Shown piece by piece: positions 22,614-35,675 of a stretch of 64,000 nt of DNA (position 1 is the stretch's first letter; each line of letters starts with the position of its first letter). The stretch spans positions 1 to 64,000 of the forward strand of contig NZ_JNIE01000004.1 of the NCBI RefSeq assembly GCF_000702425.1, written 5' to 3'. The notes beneath the pieces are model-generated. The model searched no databases. It had not been told where the DNA came from and saw only the letters and a list, made by a program, of their open reading frames with translations. The translations under genes were made by a program, and so were the position numbers. The DNA is from Thermocrinis jamiesonii. GTDB taxonomy: Bacteria; Aquificota; Aquificia; Aquificales; Aquificaceae.

Positions 22614-23048
22614 ATGCGAGTGTTGGTGCAAAGAGTAAAAGAGTCGTGGGTTGTGGTTGATGGAAAAGAGGTTGCAAGAATAGGAAAGGGATTGAATCTA
22701 TTGCTTGGTATAAGGGTGGGAGATACGGAACAGTTGGCAGACAAGCTCGTGGAGAAGGTAGTAAATTTGAGAATATTTGAAGATGAAAGGGGAAAGTTTA
22801 ATTATTCTTTACTGGACGTGGGTGGTTCTGCACTGGTGGTTTCCCAATTTACCCTCTACGCAAATACTCAAAGGGGCAGAAGGCCAAGCTTTGAAGAAGC
22901 AGAAAAGCCCGAAAGGGCAAGACAGCTTTACGAGTACTTTGTAAAGAAGCTTTCCGAATATGTGCCGGTTCAGGCAGGCATCTTTGGTGCTCACATGGAG
23001 GTTTTTATCCTAAACGACGGCCCAGTTACTATACTATTAGAGCTTTAA
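22614..23048 (+). CDS. dtd: D-aminoacyl-tRNA deacylase
   Basis: Removes D-amino acids wrongly attached to tRNA. The 144-residue product begins MRVLVQRVKESWVVVDG and carries both family motifs: SQFTLYANTQRGRRPSF and, near the C terminus, NDGPVTILLEL (Gly-cisPro is NDGPVT in DTD1). It follows murI closely, a plausible grouping because murI produces a D-amino acid. Its end overlaps the convergent HerA fusion gene by 4 bases. Confidence 0.95.
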   Translation: MRVLVQRVKESWVVVDGKEVARIGKGLNLLLGIRVGDTEQLADKLVEKVVNLRIFEDERGKFNYSLLDVGGSALVVSQFTLYANTQRGRRPSFEEAEKPERARQLYEYFVKKLSEYVPVQAGIFGAHMEVFILNDGPVTILLEL

Positions 23049-24898
23049 AGCTCAATTTCTAAGAGCATACCAAAGGGAACAGCCAACCCACTAAGGTATA
23101 ACGTGCCCGGTTTAAGCAAAGGCAGTAAATTCAAAAGCTTCCAATCCCTTTCTCCAAAGAATACAGACACCGCATCCAAATCGTTTTTCGTCACAAGCCT
23201 AAAAATGGCTTGAGTGTTCATTTGGGAGAGTATGTATTTGTTTAGGTTTGCTGGTCTTTGGGTTATGGCTATAAGCCCAACTCCAAACTTTCTCCCTTCA
23301 AGGGCGATTCTTTTTGTCATCTGCAAGGCTATGTTTTCTCTTCCTGTGGGCAAATCTGTGGCTCCTCTTTCTGGTGCAAAGTTGTGAGCCTCTTCAAGAA
23401 CTACCAATCTTCTTTTTCCATCCTTCATAGAGGAGAGGAATATTTCTTTCATAATAAGCCCCACAATGTTAAGGCGAGACTCTGGATCAATAAGGTCACT
23501 CAGATCACACAAAACTATTCCCCTTTGAGAGCTAACGATTTGCGTAGCCTTTTGCCAGACATCTTTCTGATTTCTTGTAGATTCTTCCCCAAAGTCCCTT
23601 GAGAGTAGTTCTAAAAGCTCTTGGGAGTATTCTTTGATGTCCTTGGGTGCGTCCAAGAGCATATCCTCCAAAGACCTTTCGCTGTAGGCTATTTTTCTCA
23701 AGTCTGGTTTTAAAAGCTTTCTTATTTTTCCAAAAAAGCTTTTCTCTTCTGTAGATTTTTCACTTATATCAATTCCATACCTTTTGAAAAGCTCCTTTAC
23801 ATCATCCACGCATATTGGAAATAGGGTATAGGGAATTTTCACATACTCCAGATTGTCATCTCCAAGCCTTTTATGGTATTCTCCAAACAGGTCTATAACA
23901 AACACCTGTGCGTAGTTTAGGTCTTTTATGTTTTTTAAAAGCCTTGCTACAAAGGTGGTTTTTCCAGAGCCTGTGGTGCCTAAGACCGCCATGTGCATAC
24001 TGGCAATCTTTGTAAGGTCTAAGTAAGCTGGAGTTTTAACTCCAAACAACCTTCCTGCAAATACTTTAACGTCCATAGGGTAGCCCGACATGTTGGTGCT
24101 CATAAGCTCCAAAAGCTCTTCCTCTTCGTCCATTTTCAATAACTGCGTTCCAACGTCCAAAACCCTCAAGGGAACACCAAAAGAGCTTTCTTTTTCCTCC
24201 TCTTTGGTTCTTACATATTCACAAACCATATGAACTCTTCCAACTTTTATCCTTCCACTTTCTTCCGCCATACTGTTTATCAATGCAACAACCCAGTCTT
24301 TTTGCACCATTTTCACGTTTTGCAAAAGGTTTTCCATGCCTAAGCTGTTTATGTGGTTTATCTTGCAAACCAGAAAACCTTTTTCTGTATTTACTTTTAA
24401 GAAACTTTGCTCGGGTAATTCCTCCAAAAGAAGCACGTCCAGTTCTGTGGAAGAGTAAGACCTTATAACTACCGCCACTGTCCTTTTGTCTATCTTTACC
24501 GATTCCTTCTTTACAACTTCCCAAAGGTCCAAAAGCTCTTTAATTTTAGCTCTATCTTCTAAACTCACCACCGCTTCTAAGTTGCCCTCCATAACTCCCG
24601 TATAGGTAAGGTTGGCAGAACCTACGTAAGCCTTCTTGTCATCCACTATTACAAACTTTGCATGCAACCTCGGATTTATGTAGATCTCACCGCCAAAATC
24701 TCTAACTGCTTTAAAAACTCTGTAGTCGCTTATTTCAAGGTCCTTTTTTTCGCCAGCTCTGAGTATAACCTCCAACTTTACTTTGGGCTTTATTGCCCTT
24801 ATGAGCTCTTCCAAAATCTCCCCCCTAATCCAAGCGGAGACTATCTTTACAGATTCTTTCGCAGAGGATACATCTTCCAATAATTTCTGGAGGATCAT
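23045..24898 (-). CDS. Phospholipase D-type nuclease fused to a HerA-like ATPase
   Basis: A 617-residue two-part protein. Residues 1-130 form one phospholipase D domain with a single HKD motif, H79-x-K81-x4-D86, followed by GSANLTYTG. The remainder is a HerA/FtsK-type translocase: an N-terminal HAS-like barrel (about 135-290), Walker A GTTGSGKT (307-314), Walker B LVVLEEAH (498-505) and the arginine-rich KRIALEGRKFGVGLIAITQRP. A single HKD motif implies dimerisation, while HerA rings are hexamers. Likely roles are DNA end processing or defence against foreign DNA; no NurA or defence partner is adjacent. Confidence 0.88.
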   Translation of the reverse strand: MILQKLLEDVSSAKESVKIVSAWIRGEILEELIRAIKPKVKLEVILRAGEKKDLEISDYRVFKAVRDFGGEIYINPRLHAKFVIVDDKKAYVGSANLTYTGVMEGNLEAVVSLEDRAKIKELLDLWEVVKKESVKIDKRTVAVVIRSYSSTELDVLLLEELPEQSFLKVNTEKGFLVCKINHINSLGMENLLQNVKMVQKDWVVALINSMAEESGRIKVGRVHMVCEYVRTKEEEKESSFGVPLRVLDVGTQLLKMDEEEELLELMSTNMSGYPMDVKVFAGRLFGVKTPAYLDLTKIASMHMAVLGTTGSGKTTFVARLLKNIKDLNYAQVFVIDLFGEYHKRLGDDNLEYVKIPYTLFPICVDDVKELFKRYGIDISEKSTEEKSFFGKIRKLLKPDLRKIAYSERSLEDMLLDAPKDIKEYSQELLELLSRDFGEESTRNQKDVWQKATQIVSSQRGIVLCDLSDLIDPESRLNIVGLIMKEIFLSSMKDGKRRLVVLEEAHNFAPERGATDLPTGRENIALQMTKRIALEGRKFGVGLIAITQRPANLNKYILSQMNTQAIFRLVTKNDLDAVSVFFGERDWKLLNLLPLLKPGTLYLSGLAVPFGMLLEIEL

Positions 24899-25452: not shown

Positions 25453-26151
25453 CTAAAACCACATCCTCAATCCTACTAAAAAAGTGCTTTCTTCAACTTT
25501 TCCCCTTAATTCCTTTGTTTTTCCGTAGTTTCTTTCCCAAGAAAAGCCCACATAAGGAGCTATTTCTCTTTTTATTTCATACCTTAGCCTGATAGAAAGT
25601 CCTACATTGCTTATTCCCTTACCTATTTCAAGCGGTTCTATAGTTTTAGCGCTTGCTAAAACTTCCACTTCCGGCTGAAGCACCAATCTTTGGGTTAAAA
25701 GAAGGTCATACTCTGCTTTTAATTTTCCGTAAGGCTCTCCTTTGTGAGTGAGGTAAAAACTAAGCTCAGTTTCAAACCAATAGGGAGCCAATCCTACCAA
25801 TTCTACTGCAAGCCTGGTTCTTCCCTCGTCTTTTTTTCCCGCATAGCCACCCCCAACCCTTATGTCAAAAAAGCTAGAGATAGCCTTTCCAAAGAGCAGG
25901 TCTGCCCTTTCAAACTCCCAATCTCCCCTTTTTAGTTCTTTCTTTGCTTCTAAACTAAGCCATAATTTGTGATAATCTCCTCCGTAAAAAGAATCAAGCT
26001 CTAAATTTAGGTTTTTTTCCTTTTCTCTGTATTCCAACTTATCCACAAAAACACCCCAATACCTTATTGGATGCATAGGCTCTATGGGATAGAACTCCTG
26101 CCCAAAGGTCAGAATAGGTATAAAAATTACAAAAAATATTTGCCTCATCAT
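25453..26151 (-). CDS. copB: Copper resistance protein B (outer membrane)
   Basis: A 232-residue protein with a signal peptide ending FGQEF and a beta-barrel of alternating strands ending in the aromatic VGLRMWF, typical of outer-membrane proteins. Order, size and the Met/His-poor barrel fit CopB of plasmid and chromosomal copper operons, which binds or sequesters copper at the surface. It overlaps the end of copA by 4 bases. Confidence 0.82.
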   Translation of the reverse strand: MMRQIFFVIFIPILTFGQEFYPIEPMHPIRYWGVFVDKLEYREKEKNLNLELDSFYGGDYHKLWLSLEAKKELKRGDWEFERADLLFGKAISSFFDIRVGGGYAGKKDEGRTRLAVELVGLAPYWFETELSFYLTHKGEPYGKLKAEYDLLLTQRLVLQPEVEVLASAKTIEPLEIGKGISNVGLSIRLRYEIKREIAPYVGFSWERNYGKTKELRGKVEESTFLVGLRMWF

Positions 26152-27836
26152 CCCACTTTCACTATCCTAAACATTCCTGCGTCCATGTGATACAGGATAT
26201 GGCAATGAAGAGCCCAATTTCCATAGGCATCCGCCTTGACTATAACCTCCACCACCTCAGCTGGCTTTACGTCTATGGTATGCTTTCTTGGGTTTAAGGT
26301 GTCTCCCCCGTTGTCTAAATACATCCACATGCCGTGAAGGTGTATAGGATGGTGCATCATGGTGTGATTTATGAACACAAACCTTACAGTTTCTCCATAC
26401 CTCAAAGGTATTACATCTTCAAACCTTGAGCTTAGCTTTTTGCCATCGTAAGAATACATCCTCCAGATGAATCTCTCCATGTTTCCTACCAAATGGATCT
26501 CTATGGTGCGTTCTGGTTTTCCTATGGGATACTCCTCTGCACTTACAAGATCTGCGTAGGTTAGAACTTTGTGCTTTTGATTTCTCAGCCCTACCCCAGG
26601 ATCGTCAAGCTTTGGCATAGGGTTACTTACTACCATGTCCGCATCCACACCAAAAGGGTTTTTACTCACATCCAACATCATCTTATAGCCCTCGTGGTGA
26701 TGATTGTGTCCGTGGCCCATGTGTCCGTGATGTCCCATATCCTCCATAGTCAGTTCGGGCACTTCTCTCTTTGGTGGTGGGACTGCTTTCATACCTTTCC
26801 TTGGGGCAAGGGTTCCCATAACAAAACCGCTCCTGTCCATAGCTTCTGCGTATATGGCATAGGCTTTTTCTTCTTTTGGTTCTACGATTACGTCGTACGT
26901 TTCTGCTATAGCAATACGAAACTCATCCACATCCACCGGATAGACATTTTGACCATCCGCTTGGACCACTGTCATCTTTAAGCCGGGTATTCTCACATTA
27001 AAATAGGTAGCAGCCGATGCGTTTATAAACCTTAGCCTTACCTTTTCGCCCGGTTTAAAAAGAAAGGTTGGATTCTCTTCCGTGGTTTGGCCGTTCATCA
27101 GGTAGGTGTAGGTATAGCCTGTAACATCTGCTATGTCTCTTGAGTCCATCCTCATCTGAGCCCACATGAGCCTTTCTTTTAGGGTTGGATAAAAGCCCTT
27201 TTCCCTTGCCTCCCTTAAAAAGTCCCCCAAAGTTCTTTTTTGAAAGTTGTAATATCCCGGGTGTTTTTTTAGGTTTGAGAGAATACGGTGAGGGTCTTCG
27301 TCCGTCCAATCGGAAAGCATGATCACATAATCCCTATCTGCTTTTATAACATCCTCTTCCTTCGGCTCCAGAATAAGCGGACCATACATACCCAACTGCT
27401 CTTGCATCAAAGAATGAGAGTGATACCAGTAGGTGCCATATTGAACAACCGGAAACCTGTAAGTAAATCTACTTTTGGGAGGTATTCCGGGGAAAACAAC
27501 ACCGGGCACACCGTCCATCTCATTTGGCACAAGCAAACCGTGCCAGTGGATAGAAGTAGGCTCATCCATCTCGTTTATCACATGAATGACCACTTCCTTT
27601 CCTTCCTTAAACTTAAGAAGGGGTGAGGGTAAAAGGCTGTTTATCAGAGTTCCCACTCCCCTTCTTTGTCCCACCTCCACAGGCTCCTTTCTTACAACCA
27701 ACGTATATTCCAAAAGCTCATCCTTTTCTCTGGCATCTGCCACCTCAAGCCTTCTGAAAGCGGAAAAACTCGGAACAGAGTAGGCAATGCCAAAAAGAAG
27801 CATAAGCTTTAAAAAGTCCCTTCTATGCCAGCTCAT
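26148..27836 (-). CDS. copA: Copper resistance multicopper oxidase
   Basis: A 562-residue periplasmic multicopper oxidase. The N terminus has a twin-arginine signal (HRRDFLKLMLLFGIAYS), so it is folded before export. Copper ligands are seen in order: HWHGLLVP, WYHSHSLMQEQ, HHPIHLHGMWMY and HCHILYHMDAGM, giving type 1, 2 and 3 sites. A Met/His-rich stretch (MEDMGHHGHMGHGHNHHHEG) in the middle would bind extra copper. It likely oxidises Cu(I) in the periplasm. It is translationally coupled to copB (4-base overlap) and to the upstream DUF411 gene. Confidence 0.95.
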   Translation of the reverse strand: MSWHRRDFLKLMLLFGIAYSVPSFSAFRRLEVADAREKDELLEYTLVVRKEPVEVGQRRGVGTLINSLLPSPLLKFKEGKEVVIHVINEMDEPTSIHWHGLLVPNEMDGVPGVVFPGIPPKSRFTYRFPVVQYGTYWYHSHSLMQEQLGMYGPLILEPKEEDVIKADRDYVIMLSDWTDEDPHRILSNLKKHPGYYNFQKRTLGDFLREAREKGFYPTLKERLMWAQMRMDSRDIADVTGYTYTYLMNGQTTEENPTFLFKPGEKVRLRFINASAATYFNVRIPGLKMTVVQADGQNVYPVDVDEFRIAIAETYDVIVEPKEEKAYAIYAEAMDRSGFVMGTLAPRKGMKAVPPPKREVPELTMEDMGHHGHMGHGHNHHHEGYKMMLDVSKNPFGVDADMVVSNPMPKLDDPGVGLRNQKHKVLTYADLVSAEEYPIGKPERTIEIHLVGNMERFIWRMYSYDGKKLSSRFEDVIPLRYGETVRFVFINHTMMHHPIHLHGMWMYLDNGGDTLNPRKHTIDVKPAEVVEVIVKADAYGNWALHCHILYHMDAGMFRIVKVG

Positions 27837-28618: not shown

Positions 28619-30133
28619 ATGGAAACTTTAGCCTTTGAATATAGAGCCTACAAGCCAAGACCTTTTACAAAGGAAGAAAGAGCACACACCACCATACTTT
28701 TTGGTGGGCTCACCTTTAAGCACGAAAGACTCATGGAAGGAGCCTTGGAAAATATGGGATACAAGGCAAAAGCTCTTCCAAACATAGAAAGGATTGACTT
28801 GGACATAGGCAAAGAATACATAGACGTAGGTGCTTGCTGTCCTACTACCTTTACAGCGGGAAACCTGGCAAGAACTCTTATGAACATTGAAAAGTCAGAA
28901 GGTAGGGATGCGGTTAAGAACAATTACGTATTTGTTACAGTGGGAGCATGCGGTCCATGTAGATTTGGACAGTATCACGAGTCTTACGAAAGGGTTTTGG
29001 AAGGGTTAAACCTCAAAGACTTCAGGATCTTTCTTTTGGACCTTTTACAGCTTGAGCAATCTGTAGAGGGTGGGGGTTTGGAAATAAGCATGCCACTTAC
29101 TTTGGGGCTTGTTTTTTCCATGTTTATGGGGGACTTACTAACAGATATGGAGTATGCAATTAGACCTTACGAGGTTAAAAAAGGACAAACGGACCAAGTT
29201 TTAAATCAAAGTGTAGAGCTTTTATACGAAAAGCTAAAAAACAGACCTATTGTAGGTAAAAAGCTTAGGAATTTGCTTTGGCACATATTCACAGACTACT
29301 TTGTAAAGGCTCTCGAGGAAGTAAAAGCGCTGTGGAGCGAGATAGAAGTGGATAGGCTTCAGCCAAAACCAAGGGTGAAAATAACTGGGGAGTTTTGGCT
29401 TCAAACTCACGAAGGAGATGGCAACTATAACATAAAAAGATGGTTAGAAAAAGAAAACGCAGAAGTAATACCACCACCTGTGGCGGTTTGGATGGACTAT
29501 CTGATAAACATGGAGCTTTTCAAGCTGGAGGATGCCAAGCCTTTTGTGAAGAGATACTATCTAAAGAAAGCTATAATTTCCTTTTTTGCATGGCTTTACA
29601 GAAGAACTTACGACAAGCTTAGAAAAGCTCTAAATTACATTCCCAATCCACTGCCAGACCAGAGAGAACTAAAGGAGCTTGCAAGACCTTACTTTTACTA
29701 CAGATTAACCGGCGGTGAAGGGCACATGCTCATAGGAAAGGCTCTATATTCGCTCAAGCACAAACAGGCTCATATGATATGCGAGCTATCTCCTTATGGT
29801 TGTTTGCCCAATACTATGTCCGTTGGAGCTATGGCAAAGGTCTTGGCTGACTATCCGGATTTGCTTTATGCACCCATAGAAGTAAAGGGCGATTCGGAGG
29901 TGCATGCATACTCTCGTTGTCAAATGGTGCTAACAGAGGCTAAAAGAAGGGCAAAGCAGGAGTTTGAAGAGGTCTTAGAAAAAACAGGTTTAACTATTGA
30001 AAAGATAAGGGAGTTTGAGGCAGATCATCCAGAGCTAAGAAGGGCTACCTACAGGGTGCCAAGATACGGTTATATTGGCACTGCAGCCAATTACGTTTAT
30101 CATATAGCAAAGCTGATGGGGAAGGTAAGATGA
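28619..30133 (+). CDS. 2-hydroxyacyl-CoA dehydratase-like (HgdB-like) protein
   Basis: A 504-residue cytosolic protein, related to the HgdB/DUF2229-type halves of ATP-driven activase systems. Cysteines that could hold Fe-S clusters are ACCPTTFTAGNL, VTVGACGPCRFGQY and CELSPYGCLPNTMSVG. In many anaerobes this part is fused after two activase ATPase domains; here it is separate and first in order. AAAGGAGGG precedes the ATG at 28619; an open frame upstream lacks support. The ATPase gene begins 4 bases before its end. The substrate is unknown; a low-potential reductase role is inference. Confidence 0.75.
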   Translation: METLAFEYRAYKPRPFTKEERAHTTILFGGLTFKHERLMEGALENMGYKAKALPNIERIDLDIGKEYIDVGACCPTTFTAGNLARTLMNIEKSEGRDAVKNNYVFVTVGACGPCRFGQYHESYERVLEGLNLKDFRIFLLDLLQLEQSVEGGGLEISMPLTLGLVFSMFMGDLLTDMEYAIRPYEVKKGQTDQVLNQSVELLYEKLKNRPIVGKKLRNLLWHIFTDYFVKALEEVKALWSEIEVDRLQPKPRVKITGEFWLQTHEGDGNYNIKRWLEKENAEVIPPPVAVWMDYLINMELFKLEDAKPFVKRYYLKKAIISFFAWLYRRTYDKLRKALNYIPNPLPDQRELKELARPYFYYRLTGGEGHMLIGKALYSLKHKQAHMICELSPYGCLPNTMSVGAMAKVLADYPDLLYAPIEVKGDSEVHAYSRCQMVLTEAKRRAKQEFEEVLEKTGLTIEKIREFEADHPELRRATYRVPRYGYIGTAANYVYHIAKLMGKVR

Positions 30134-32280
30134 TAGTCGGTATAGATGTAGGTAGCACTACCTGCAAGTATGTTTTGGTGGACGATAACGGAAAGATATT
30201 GGACAAAGCCTACGAGAGACACAATACGAAGACCGCCGAAAAGGTTTTGGAGTTTTTGCAAAGACTTGAAAAGCATTACGGTTTGACCGCTGGCAGAGAC
30301 AGGGTCTACTTTACGGGCTCTGGTGCTACGCTGTTGGCTCCGTTGGTGGGTGGTAAGTTTGTTCAAGAAGTGGTAGCAGTTTCTACTGCGGTGGAAAAAC
30401 TACATCCGGACGTGAGGTTTGTAAGTGAAATAGGTGGGGAGGACATGAAGGCTATCTTTTTTAAGGAGGTGGAGGGCAAAAGGGTAAAGCAGGTGTTTAT
30501 GCAGAATGCTTGCGCAGGGGGAACGGGAACTTTTATAGAAAAGACCGCAAGAAAGCTTGGCATTCCACAGGAAAAACTCAGTTCTATGGGATACATAGGC
30601 TATAGTCTGCACAAGGTTAGTGCTAAGTGTGGTATATTTGCGGAAGCTGACGTGAATACTCTTCAAAAAGCTGGAGTGCCGGCAGAAGAAATAATGGCAT
30701 CCCTTTTTGAGGCGGTGGTCTATCAAAATCTGACACAGCTCACAAAGGGAAATACTCCCATGTATAAGGTGCTACTTTTGGGAGGTCCAAACCTATTTTT
30801 CAAGGGGCTTCAGGAAGCCTGGAAGGTTCATCTCAGAAGAATCTGGAAGGAAAGAAACATCATTGACTGTTCAGAGGAGGAGATGGATCAGTTGGTTGTA
30901 GTTCCTGAAAACTCCCTTTATTACGCTTCACTCGGATGCGTGTTTTACGCCATGGAAGAAGAAGGGGGATACTACCAAGGTTTAGAAAAGCTTAAATGGT
31001 GGATAGAAGAGGGGCAATACGAAGAAAAGCTAAGGGAGGGAAGAAAGGGTTTGGTATCTTCCAAAGAAGAACTGGAAGAATTTCTAAAAGAATACGAAGG
31101 ACAGTACAAAGTTATAACGCCAAAGAAGGTTAAAAGGATCGCAATAGGTTGCGATTTTGGTTCAACTACCGCCAAAGCGGTTTGTGTCTCCGAAGATGGA
31201 GAGCCTGTATTTTCCTGCTATCAGCTCAGTAAGGGCAATCCCATAGAGGACGCAAAGGGGATATTTAGACAGATAAAAGATTTCTTTGGGGAGGATGTGG
31301 AAGTTATAGGGCTTGGGCTTACTGGTTATGGAAAGGACCTTTTAAAGGATGTGCTCGGTGCGGACTATGCGGTGGTGGAAACTGTCGCTCATGCTACTGG
31401 AGCGCTGAAGTTCTTTCCGGATGCAGACTGCATATGTGATGTGGGAGGTGTGGATGTAAAGATCCTGATCCTTAGGAACGGGTCTGTGGTGGATTTTAGA
31501 TTAAACTCTCAGTGTTCCTCTGGAAATGGTGCCTTTTTGCAGGGCGTGGCAGAAAGGTTTGGCATACCACTGCAGGAGATAGCTTCCTTAGCCTTTACTG
31601 CAAAGGCTATTCCAAGCTTTACCATGGGATGTGGAGTGTTCTTGCAGAGCGACATAGTAAATCAGCAAAGGAAGGGGTGGAAGGCAGAGGAGATACTTGC
31701 GGGACTGTGTTACATCCTTCCAATGAACGTGTGGATATACGCAGGAAACATAAACAACTTAGCCCAAATAGGTAGGAAGTTTGTCCTTCAGGGTGGAACC
31801 CACAAGAACTTGGCAGTTGTAAAGGCCCAGAGGGACTTTATAAGGTCCAAGGTGCCTGGGGCTGAAGTGGTAGTCCATCCCTATCCAGGAGAGGCGGGAG
31901 CCCTTGGTGTAGCCCTGCTCGCTTTGGAAGCCAAAGGAAGGACAAGATTTAGAGGCTTTGAAGTTATAGAAAATCTAACCTACAAAACCACCACTTCTGC
32001 GGACACAGTTTGTAGGTGGTGTCCTATGAACTGCCAAAGGACGTTCATAGATGTATATGTAGGAGAAGGTGAAGGAAGAAGTTGGAGCAAAGTTCCGTTG
32101 GAAAAGGGATGGTTAAGGTTAATAGTTGGCAATGCTTGCCCAAAAGGCTTGGTGGAAGACGAGCAGGAACTAAAGGTATTACAGCAGGAGTTAAGGAGGG
32201 TTCAAAATGAGTTTCCTAACCTTTCCCAAATTGCTAAAAAGGAAGCCTTCAAGCCAAGAAGAAAGCAAAAAATCCATTAA
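30130..32280 (+). CDS. Tandem BadF/HgdC-type activase ATPase
   Basis: A 716-residue protein with two complete ASKHA-type activase modules. Module 1 has IDVGSTTCK (residues 5-13) and cysteines C128 (NACAGGTGTF) and C167 (SAKCGIFAEADV). Module 2 has CDFGSTTAK (341-349), C462 (QCSSGNGAF) and C501 (GCGVFLQSDI). In HgdC-type activases the two cysteines of two subunits share one [4Fe-4S] cluster, so one chain could do this alone. A C-terminal set C628, C631, C635 and C670 may bind another cluster. It would drive ATP-dependent electron transfer to its neighbours. Confidence 0.88.
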   Translation: MIVGIDVGSTTCKYVLVDDNGKILDKAYERHNTKTAEKVLEFLQRLEKHYGLTAGRDRVYFTGSGATLLAPLVGGKFVQEVVAVSTAVEKLHPDVRFVSEIGGEDMKAIFFKEVEGKRVKQVFMQNACAGGTGTFIEKTARKLGIPQEKLSSMGYIGYSLHKVSAKCGIFAEADVNTLQKAGVPAEEIMASLFEAVVYQNLTQLTKGNTPMYKVLLLGGPNLFFKGLQEAWKVHLRRIWKERNIIDCSEEEMDQLVVVPENSLYYASLGCVFYAMEEEGGYYQGLEKLKWWIEEGQYEEKLREGRKGLVSSKEELEEFLKEYEGQYKVITPKKVKRIAIGCDFGSTTAKAVCVSEDGEPVFSCYQLSKGNPIEDAKGIFRQIKDFFGEDVEVIGLGLTGYGKDLLKDVLGADYAVVETVAHATGALKFFPDADCICDVGGVDVKILILRNGSVVDFRLNSQCSSGNGAFLQGVAERFGIPLQEIASLAFTAKAIPSFTMGCGVFLQSDIVNQQRKGWKAEEILAGLCYILPMNVWIYAGNINNLAQIGRKFVLQGGTHKNLAVVKAQRDFIRSKVPGAEVVVHPYPGEAGALGVALLALEAKGRTRFRGFEVIENLTYKTTTSADTVCRWCPMNCQRTFIDVYVGEGEGRSWSKVPLEKGWLRLIVGNACPKGLVEDEQELKVLQQELRRVQNEFPNLSQIAKKEAFKPRRKQKIH

Positions 32281-33358
32281 GGTAGGAATACCAAAGTTTT
32301 TAAACATTTGGGGAACTGCTCCATTTTGGGTAGGATTCTTTGAAAGCTTGGGACTAAGGGTAGTCTTTAGCTCAGATACTTCAGAAGAACAGTACAGAAC
32401 TTACGGAAAGGGAAGGATAACTATGGATAGCTGTTTTCCTGTGAAGGCTTTAGCGGGTCATATAGGAGAACTGCTTCAAAAAGATATAAACATCCTTTTT
32501 GTGCCTATGATCTATTCCCTTCCTTCCTTTTTAAAAGGTCATGTGTTGGACACTCTGTGTTGCACAAGGGTGATGATGGCTCCAGAAAACATAAAGGCAG
32601 GTTTTCTAAAGGAAAGGGACGAGTTTAAGGAAAGGGGTATAAAGTATGTTTCTCCCTTTGTGCCTTTTGCAGAACCTGAGCTTTTACCAAAGTATCTTTA
32701 CGAAGCCCTAAAAGATGCGGTGGATGGTCTAACTTACAATCAGGTTGTTCAGGCGGTAAAAGAAGGTTTTGAAGCCCTTGAGGAGTTTGAAAGGTCTATG
32801 AGATCTAAGTCCCTTGAGATAATGAGGTGGTGTGTAGCAAACAACAGACCAGCCCTTTTGGTTCTTGCAAGGCCCTATCACATGGACCCAGGTATAGGAC
32901 ACGAAATAGATGCTGAGTTTCAACTTTATGGTTATCCCATCCTTTGGTATAACTACCTTCCAATAGATGATTGGCTTTTGGACTGGCTTGGCATATCTTT
33001 GGACATATCGGACGTATGGACCTCCTCTTACAGCTCAAACACCAACGAGATAATCTGGGGTGCAAAGTTTGCAAGTAAATTCCCTTGGATAACAGGAGTT
33101 ATAAGACTTTCCTCTTACGAGTGTGGTATGGACCAGCCAACCTTTACTCCAGTGCAGAAGATCGTAGAATCTTCGGGCACTCTGTTTTTCAAATTTGGAG
33201 AGCTTGACGAGACCAAACCTGCGGGCAGTGTAAAAATAAGGGTGGAGACCATAGTGTATTATTTGGAAAAATACTCCCAAGAAATAATCAAGAAAAAACT
33301 CAGCAGGCTTGGTGATATTCCTAAGAAACTCTTAGAACCAGTTTCCCAAAGTGCATAG
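32207..33358 (+). CDS. DUF2229-type activase-associated protein
   Basis: A 383-residue protein of the DUF2229/acyl-CoA dehydratase-activase-related family. Conserved Cys-containing segments are TMDSCFPVKALAGHI, LDTLCCTRVMMAPENIK and SYECGMDQPTF. Its ATG lies 74 bases inside the activase gene, but TTAAGGAGGG directly upstream supports the start, so the long overlap is probably real. It ends by overlapping the convergent alcohol dehydrogenase gene by 38 bases. It is the third part of what is often a single ~1400-residue polypeptide in anaerobes. Confidence 0.82.
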   Translation: MSFLTFPKLLKRKPSSQEESKKSIKVGIPKFLNIWGTAPFWVGFFESLGLRVVFSSDTSEEQYRTYGKGRITMDSCFPVKALAGHIGELLQKDINILFVPMIYSLPSFLKGHVLDTLCCTRVMMAPENIKAGFLKERDEFKERGIKYVSPFVPFAEPELLPKYLYEALKDAVDGLTYNQVVQAVKEGFEALEEFERSMRSKSLEIMRWCVANNRPALLVLARPYHMDPGIGHEIDAEFQLYGYPILWYNYLPIDDWLLDWLGISLDISDVWTSSYSSNTNEIIWGAKFASKFPWITGVIRLSSYECGMDQPTFTPVQKIVESSGTLFFKFGELDETKPAGSVKIRVETIVYYLEKYSQEIIKKKLSRLGDIPKKLLEPVSQSA

Positions 33359-34568: not shown

Positions 34569-35675
34569 ATGAAACACCAGATAAACCCAGAAACGATTAG
34601 GGAAGCGCTGAAGAGGAACAAAGTAAAAAGCGAAAACTACAAAGGGCTAGAATATTTAAGGTTCACAGATGATTTTAAGGACATACCCAGAGGCACAGCT
34701 ATATTTAAAACCACCGTGGTTTGGGGATATCCACATATAGGTAGAATATTCCAACTTTCCACGGGAATTAGAGAACAGTTTAGCCAAGCTTTTTACGTTG
34801 AAGAAAAGGTAGATGGATACAACACGAGGATATTCCTGTATGAGGACCAAATTTTAGCCCTCAGCAGAGGAGGGTATGTATGTCCATTTACGACAGAAAG
34901 GGTTTTGGATTTTATAAACCCGAAATTTTTTGAAGACAACCCAGACCTTATACTGTGTGCAGAAGTCGCCGGTCCAGAAAACCCCTATGTGGATGAACAT
35001 CCTCCGTATATTACAGAAGACATAAAAATTTTCGTGTTTGACATCATGAGAAAAAACTCTCGGGAATTTCTTCCTTACTCGGAAAAAGAAAGACTCATAG
35101 AGAAATATGGGTTACCTTCCGTAGAGAGGTTCGGATTATTTACACCGGATGATGTGGAAGATATTAAAAAACTGCTGAAACGTTTAAATGATGAGGGAAG
35201 GGAAGGTGTGGTTTTTAAGGAAAATTCAGAAAAGAATAAAAGAGTAAAATACGTAACTTTATATTCAAGTCTTAAGGATATAGAAATAGCCTCTGTTAAT
35301 CTCCTTGGGTTGCCATCCGATTATTTTACCAACAGACTGCTCAGGTTGGCTTTATTTATGGAAGAGGAAGGCATCGGTGCAGACCAAGAACTATTTCTGA
35401 ATGTAGGCAAAGCATTCCTAGAAGGTCTTTTAAAAGCTATCGAGTTGTCAAAGAAGGAAAGGAAGGTTTATAGAACCTTCAGGTGTAGGTTCAAGACAAA
35501 GGAAAACGCCCTTCTGTTTTTGGAAAGCATAAAACACGCCTCTTCCCAAATACAGGTTATTGAAAGAAGTCTAAAAAAGGAAGGAAACTTTTGGGTCTTG
35601 GAGTTTGATAGGGTTTACCTGAATATGACAGGACTTCTTGGTCATCTGCTGGCAGGTGGCTCTATTTTTGATTGA
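34569..35675 (+). CDS. RNA ligase, Pab1020/Rnl3 family
   Basis: A 368-residue ATP-dependent RNA ligase of the archaeal Pab1020 (Rnl3) type. Motif I with the adenylated Lys is EEKVDGYNTR (K80), followed by the nucleotidyltransferase motifs LCAEVAGPENPYV, FVFDIM and EGVVFKEN, and C-terminal KRVKYVT. Known relatives join or circularise RNA 5'-phosphate and 3'-hydroxyl ends. In archaea the HARP gene occurs next to this ligase; here HARP is at 6484-7065. A DNA methyltransferase remnant lies directly upstream. Confidence 0.9.
   Translation: MKHQINPETIREALKRNKVKSENYKGLEYLRFTDDFKDIPRGTAIFKTTVVWGYPHIGRIFQLSTGIREQFSQAFYVEEKVDGYNTRIFLYEDQILALSRGGYVCPFTTERVLDFINPKFFEDNPDLILCAEVAGPENPYVDEHPPYITEDIKIFVFDIMRKNSREFLPYSEKERLIEKYGLPSVERFGLFTPDDVEDIKKLLKRLNDEGREGVVFKENSEKNKRVKYVTLYSSLKDIEIASVNLLGLPSDYFTNRLLRLALFMEEEGIGADQELFLNVGKAFLEGLLKAIELSKKERKVYRTFRCRFKTKENALLFLESIKHASSQIQVIERSLKKEGNFWVLEFDRVYLNMTGLLGHLLAGGSIFD

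Follow-up and report, generated by a model that had tools for sequence, protein, structure and literature searches.

A three-gene operon of Thermocrinis jamiesonii probably encoding a split glycerol ester reductase of the PlsA/Ger kind

In Thermocrinis jamiesonii, three consecutive genes, here called P0001 (R), P0002 (A) and P0003 (D), very probably encode a three-subunit glycerol ester reductase of the PlsA/Ger kind, as judged from their sequence relationships. PlsA is described as a HAD-family enzyme with the parts Act1, Act2, Red1 and Red2 that converts diacyl phospholipids into plasmalogens (PMC12838417), and Ger as its homologue with two activation domains that makes saturated alkyl ethers, proven for the enzymes of Thermotoga and Desulfatibacillum by expression in E. 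coli (PMC11150832, PMC13274423). The features shared with these enzymes are two BcrAD_BadFG domains, a DUF2229 domain, a four-Cys linker and a second reductase domain with conserved cysteines, present as the separate P0001. The layout of PlsA/Ger, a single chain or plsA plus plsR, is not matched by the three genes in the window (the whole stretch of 64,000 nucleotides that was analysed); gene number was not treated as defining these enzymes, because natural one- and two-gene forms are both reported to work (PMC12838417).

Gene structure and conserved cysteines

The T. jamiesonii genome comprises 10 contigs with 1,315,625 bases, and strain GBS1T of this species is obligately microaerophilic (PMC5073254). 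The operon contains the following features:

28619..30133, + strand: P0001 (R), 504 aa, putative second reductase domain Red2, counterpart of PlsR or of the C-terminal domain of fused PlsA
28949-28951 and 29783-29785, + strand: C111 and position 389 of P0001, alternative Cys sites
30130..32280, + strand: P0002 (A), 716 aa, double activase ATPase plus four-Cys linker
30136..30747, + strand: activase module 1 (PF01869) with C128/C167
31144..31923, + strand: activase module 2 (PF01869) with C462/C501
32011..32139, + strand: four-Cys linker of P0002, C628-x2-C631-x3-C635 ... C670
32207..32280, + strand: A/D overlap of 74 bases
32207..33358, + strand: P0003 (D), 383 aa, putative DUF2229 reductase domain Red1

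The ORF coordinates agree with a preliminary description of this DNA, in which an HgdB-like protein, a double activase and a DUF2229 protein were encoded by genes overlapping by 4 bases (P0001/P0002) and 74 bases (P0002/P0003), and a GGAGG-type ribosome site precedes the starts at 28619 (P0001) and 32207 (P0003). Since the overlap of genes A and D is kept at 68-77 bases in 13 loci (11 distinct places) of Thermocrinis and related Aquificaceae, we regard it as real gene structure. Around the Thermocrinis operon, no gene other than the pls genes stood out as conserved, so that the gene context within the window is uninformative. Elsewhere in the window, a divergent gene group upstream of the operon contains a copper-resistance type multicopper oxidase (26148-27836, - strand; TIGR01480, 7.5e-215), an archaeal-type (Pab1020-like) RNA ligase is encoded near the operon at 34569-35675 (+ strand; TIGR01209, 3e-122), and the gene at 23045-24898 (- strand) encodes a HerA-like ATPase whose N-terminus is fused to a phospholipase-D-type nuclease domain and which matches HerA and DrmC defence models.

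P0002 contains two BcrAD_BadFG modules (family profile search, 2.5e-78, two stretches). The cysteine pairs that had been noticed in both modules (C128/C167 and C462/C501), as well as a third set in the linker (C628, C631, C635 and C670), are indeed present and conserved in all nine compared rows, one of which is the Aquifex activase joined by hand to the start of its neighbouring protein. In Aquifex-type genomes, the four-Cys linker is found at the start of the DUF2229 gene and not in the activase gene. As far as the aligned sequences indicate, this linker is a standing part of the PlsA/Ger-like architecture. If the two activase modules resemble HgdC-type activases in this respect, their four cysteines would hold one shared cluster and not two.

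P0003 is a DUF2229 protein (family profile search, 4e-51) in which C76, C119 and C306 are conserved in 9/9 compared rows. Within Aquificota, the same three cysteines occur in 23/23 rows of P0003, and C73, C111, C114 and C395 in 45/45 rows of P0001; in both counts the window protein appears two times and a few contigs are duplicated. Comparison of the predicted P0003 structure (pLDDT 61, pTM 0.68) with the PDB by a second-look aligner returned only HAD, DCCP or BCR entries among the top ten matches (Z 8.6 to 5.9, rmsd 4.6-5.3, 227-264 residues aligned), and from Z 5.6 down unrelated entries with about half the coverage. Foldseek alone gave no match to the PDB with an E-value below 0.001, DCCP being at rank 4, and the P0003 sequence profile had no HAD family member among its PDB matches. 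On a model of modest confidence, P0003 thus has a HAD/BCR/DCCP-type fold. The earlier assignment of the locus as an activase with a dehydratase- or reductase-like part is right. Three cysteines of the benzoyl-CoA reductase subunit BzdO, Cys95, Cys128 and Cys380, are described as holding one cluster (PMC11971306), and the three-Cys spacing of both P0003 and P0001 resembles this arrangement.

For P0001, sequence searches of Pfam, NCBIfam and the PDB gave no match, and the term HgdB-like, originally given to it, found no support in family searches; what stands of it is the homology of P0001 to the final domain of the fused proteins (tblastn against the plasmid collection, E 2e-13 to 4e-22) and a shared three-Cys pattern. 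C73, C114 and C395 are present in 10/10 compared rows. A fourth cysteine is located at C111 in six of these rows and at position 389 in the other four, never at both or neither, so that it seems to change place, possibly as a moved fourth ligand. The profile match between P0001 and P0003 is weak (probability 12%) and pairs C395 with C306; the P0001-like protein of F. animalis matches the start of DUF2229 with 1.8e-6, just below the curated cut-off. The P0001 model has a pLDDT of 49, built from a shallow alignment (11 close sequences), and at this low confidence the fact that structural searches returned no HAD/BCR/DCCP family member proves nothing; among the PDB matches of the P0001 sequence profile there was no HAD family member either.

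Three further cysteines of P0001 (C74, C388 and C434) are all present in 25 of the 45 Aquificota sequences, from Thermocrinis, Hydrogenobacter and their kin, and none of them occurs in the other 20. One clade has seven cysteines in or beside the ligand loops, four being invariant across Aquificota, and a double-cubane [8Fe-9S] cluster needs six Cys ligands. The idea that the extra cysteines are cluster ligands is weakened by P0002, which also shows many clade-specific cysteines, at hydrophobic positions. We consider it unlikely that the ester reductase of Aquificota consists of three dissociable components, works in microaerophiles and, in the Thermocrinis/Hydrogenobacter clade, holds a second or double-cubane cluster in a Red2 that has gained C74, C388 and C434 together near the conserved ligand loops; if true, this would amount to a double-cubane enzyme that reduces lipids and whose parts can be separated.

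Homologues, gene layouts and regulator genes

In a search of annotated plasmid records, P0003 matched 10 records and P0001 8, and the regions of 5 records were compared. One annotated protein spans P0002, P0003 and P0001 in series in Listeria (1475 aa), Haliovirga (1449 aa) and Collinsella (1593 aa), and an unannotated single frame of about 1430 aa in Acetoanaerobium has the same domain series. In F. animalis, a single gene covers A and D (with the linker) and is followed by a separate gene for the P0001-like part. The fused order, in which the activases and DUF2229 were placed by Pfam and the linker and P0001-like domain by alignment, is Act1-Act2-four-Cys linker-DUF2229-P0001-like. Both the domain order and the alignment of the parts end to end with proteins of about 1430-1600 aa, next to the two-gene Fusobacterium form, corroborate the initial view of the operon as a split version of one large protein. 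Against a 7-protein database, the Listeria protein matched P0002 (4.5e-92), P0003 (7.3e-32) and P0001 (2.1e-27); identity to the fused homologues is low (23-25% for P0001, 26-28% for P0003, 29-33% for P0002). Their NCBI names are only acyl-CoA dehydratase activase or 2-hydroxyacyl-CoA dehydratase; we take them as PlsA/Ger by their architecture and the published descriptions, through which they were also set beside the proven enzymes. No relative was found in viral contigs.

Among 136 Aquificota genomes, P0001 was detected in 69, P0002 in 67 and P0003 in 66; all three genes occur in 62, any of them in 72 and none in 64, and five of the 10 genomes with a partial set are less than 90% complete. 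We presume that Aquifex aeolicus, Thermocrinis albus and Hydrogenobacter thermophilus are among the gene-bearing genomes. DUF2229 was found in 4/14 control genomes, namely those of Thermus composti, Deinobacterium chartae, Thermotoga maritima and Lactococcus lactis. The last two are, or are closely related to, species with proven enzymes and count in favour of the PlsA/Ger reading, the first two against it. Across Aquificota the three genes are split or fused in at least six ways, with the linker travelling with A or with D depending on the layout:

Thermocrinis and most of genus g7: R-A-D operon with overlap
Hydrogenobacter g4 and part of g7: R-A; D lies at another place or follows an inserted ABC transporter operon
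genus g3: TetR-R-A-D, with D at another place in some genomes
Aquifex, g2: TetR-A-linker+D-R
genus g10: TetR-A-linker+D, with R elsewhere
families f4 and f5: A+linker+D fused, with R at another locus
family f3 (L052, 5596-6990): inverted D (linker+DUF2229) gene between two partner genes, its end overlapping the end of the activase gene by 4 bases

Several of these layouts include a TetR gene. A pattern scan of 60 regions and 5 named contig loci, some of them identical places and with a pattern that may miss others, found TetR at 12 Aquificota loci, in 12/12 immediately upstream of a pls gene and in the same orientation; all five upstream genes tested contain TetR_N by Pfam. The fused pls gene of Collinsella likewise has a TetR gene immediately upstream. 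A like position, counted in favour of the PlsA/Ger reading, is given for Enterococcus faecalis by a review, which places a TetR/AcrR gene directly upstream of pls, suggests oxygen sensing and states its absence from strict anaerobes (PMC9702350). The pattern in Aquificota is partly the reverse of this idea: a TetR gene is directly upstream of the fused pls gene at four loci of family f5 (L086, L090, L093 and L094), which we take to be Desulfurobacteriaceae and strict anaerobes, and the same pattern scan saw none at the Thermocrinis and Hydrogenobacter loci, a result that was counted against the PlsA/Ger reading.

The statement of the preliminary description that no dehydratase lies nearby is true genome-wide, as PF06050 (HGD-D) has no match in P0001-P0003 or the whole T. 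jamiesonii genome, and matches in 2/136 Aquificota genomes. A genome that we take to be Desulfurobacterium thermolithotrophum carries a DCCP-like HGD-D gene (L110, 1459-2670, - strand), its match continuing in another frame, and, about 67 kb from it, a lone activase (L103, 8318-9106, + strand), both beside transposase-like ORFs. The P0001 and P0003 profiles were compared with this DCCP-like protein and neither matched.

The ester reductase reading and its alternatives

In the mechanism that we propose, P0002 would be the ATPase, its two activase modules forming a pseudo-dimer around one [4Fe-4S] cluster. ATP would drive low-potential electrons singly from P0002 into the pair of P0003 (Red1) and P0001 (Red2), each of which may carry its own three-Cys cluster site, and the three proteins would form a complex. 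The pair would convert the sn-1 acyl ester of a phospholipid, most likely a membrane phospholipid, into an alkyl ether with loss of water, the product probably being a saturated alkyl ether.

The preliminary description had seen an ATP-driven low-potential electron donor with no obvious client, a view to be given up for a conventional role if relatives had a dehydratase or reductase subunit beside it. The reading without a client does not hold. Every scanned locus with an activase has at least one reductase part (DUF2229 or P0001-like) adjacent or fused to it, which favours the conventional role. P0001 and P0003 would themselves make up the reducing part, so that the client would be built in, and the described enzymes that match best have membrane lipid esters as substrates. 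A general ATP-driven donor of low-potential electrons without a substrate site of its own, serving for example ferredoxin for the reductive TCA cycle, would fit hosts that need such electrons for CO2 fixation. Activase modules of the P0002 type are indeed described to use ATP to bring electrons to a lower redox potential (PMC11971306). We nevertheless judge this reading highly improbable: the reductase halves are co-inherited with the activase (62 of the 136 genomes having all three genes), the closest described relatives are lipid enzymes, and 64 genomes have none of the genes, though the reductive TCA cycle is usual in Aquificota. An enzyme with a CoA ester as substrate, either a 2-hydroxyacyl-CoA dehydratase or one like benzoyl-CoA reductase, would agree with the NCBI names of the homologues, with the P0003 fold and with the similarity of the activase to dehydratase activators and benzoyl-CoA reductase subunits. 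The fold and the activase homology are shared with 2-hydroxyisocaproyl-CoA dehydratase (3o3m, 3o3n; Z 8.6) and its activator (4eht), and an ATP-driven activase with a HAD-type reductase is common to DCCP/DCCP-R and class I benzoyl-CoA reductase (Z 8.0 and 7.4). The former, however, uses a CoA ester and a separate activator protein and lacks DUF2229, and DCCP has an [8Fe-9S] cluster whereas P0003 has only three invariant cysteines. As DUF2229 and the four-Cys linker set this architecture apart, PF06050 is without a match in the genome and no gene of a CoA pathway was conspicuous among conserved neighbours, a CoA-ester enzyme can hardly be expected here.

The likeness to PlsA-PlsR of Clostridium perfringens, Enterococcus and Lactococcus lies in Act1, Act2, Red1 and Red2 and, in some, an upstream TetR gene; the differences are one or two genes versus three, a vinyl ether product and hosts that are anaerobes or facultative anaerobes. 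The Ger hosts Thermotoga maritima and Desulfatibacillum alkenivorans are strict anaerobes. Going by published descriptions, Ger shares with the operon the two activation domains, alkyl ether lipids and, in Thermotoga, a thermophilic host, whereas the D. alkenivorans form is a single chain of ~159 kDa (PMC11150832). PlsA and Ger are described as indistinguishable by sequence at present (PMC13274423, PMC11868695), which leaves room for a vinyl-ether (plasmalogen) synthase instead of a saturated alkyl-ether Ger, but the reports on H. thermophilus and T. albus speak of alkyl monoethers (PMC3111988, PMC3035279), and we regard a vinyl-ether product as very unlikely. Two activases, tried as a mark of alkyl as opposed to vinyl ether makers, proved not usable, because all five fused or two-gene homologues scanned, Listeria included, have two.

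Ether lipids of the Aquificales

In hot springs, alkyl ether lipids have long been known as markers of Aquificales, and they also play a part in the discussion of the bacterial-archaeal 'lipid divide'. Because the homology of the operon to PlsA/Ger coincides with ether lipids reported in H. thermophilus, T. albus and A. aeolicus, we interpret it as encoding the ester reductase that would form the monoethers of these bacteria. According to the lipid descriptions, H. thermophilus TK-6 has glycerol monoethers (82.7% C18:0) with diethers absent (PMC3111988), T. albus has probable monoester-monoether lipids (PMC3035279), and A. aeolicus has ester and ether phospholipids, its lipid section naming no enzyme for the ether step (PMC3917532). 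For T. jamiesonii, the literature yielded only fatty-acid data and no report of ether lipids. No PlsA/Ger paper on Aquificota was found either; Jackson 2021 and Sahonero-Canavesi 2022, known through citing papers, may list Aquificota. The genes P0001-P0003 are the best candidates found for the synthesis of the alkyl ether lipids of Aquificales. Moreover, since large fused forms of the enzyme are described to form inclusion bodies in E. coli (PMC11150832), the natural split into ATPase and reductase subunits, from a thermophile source, would offer a handle on this class.
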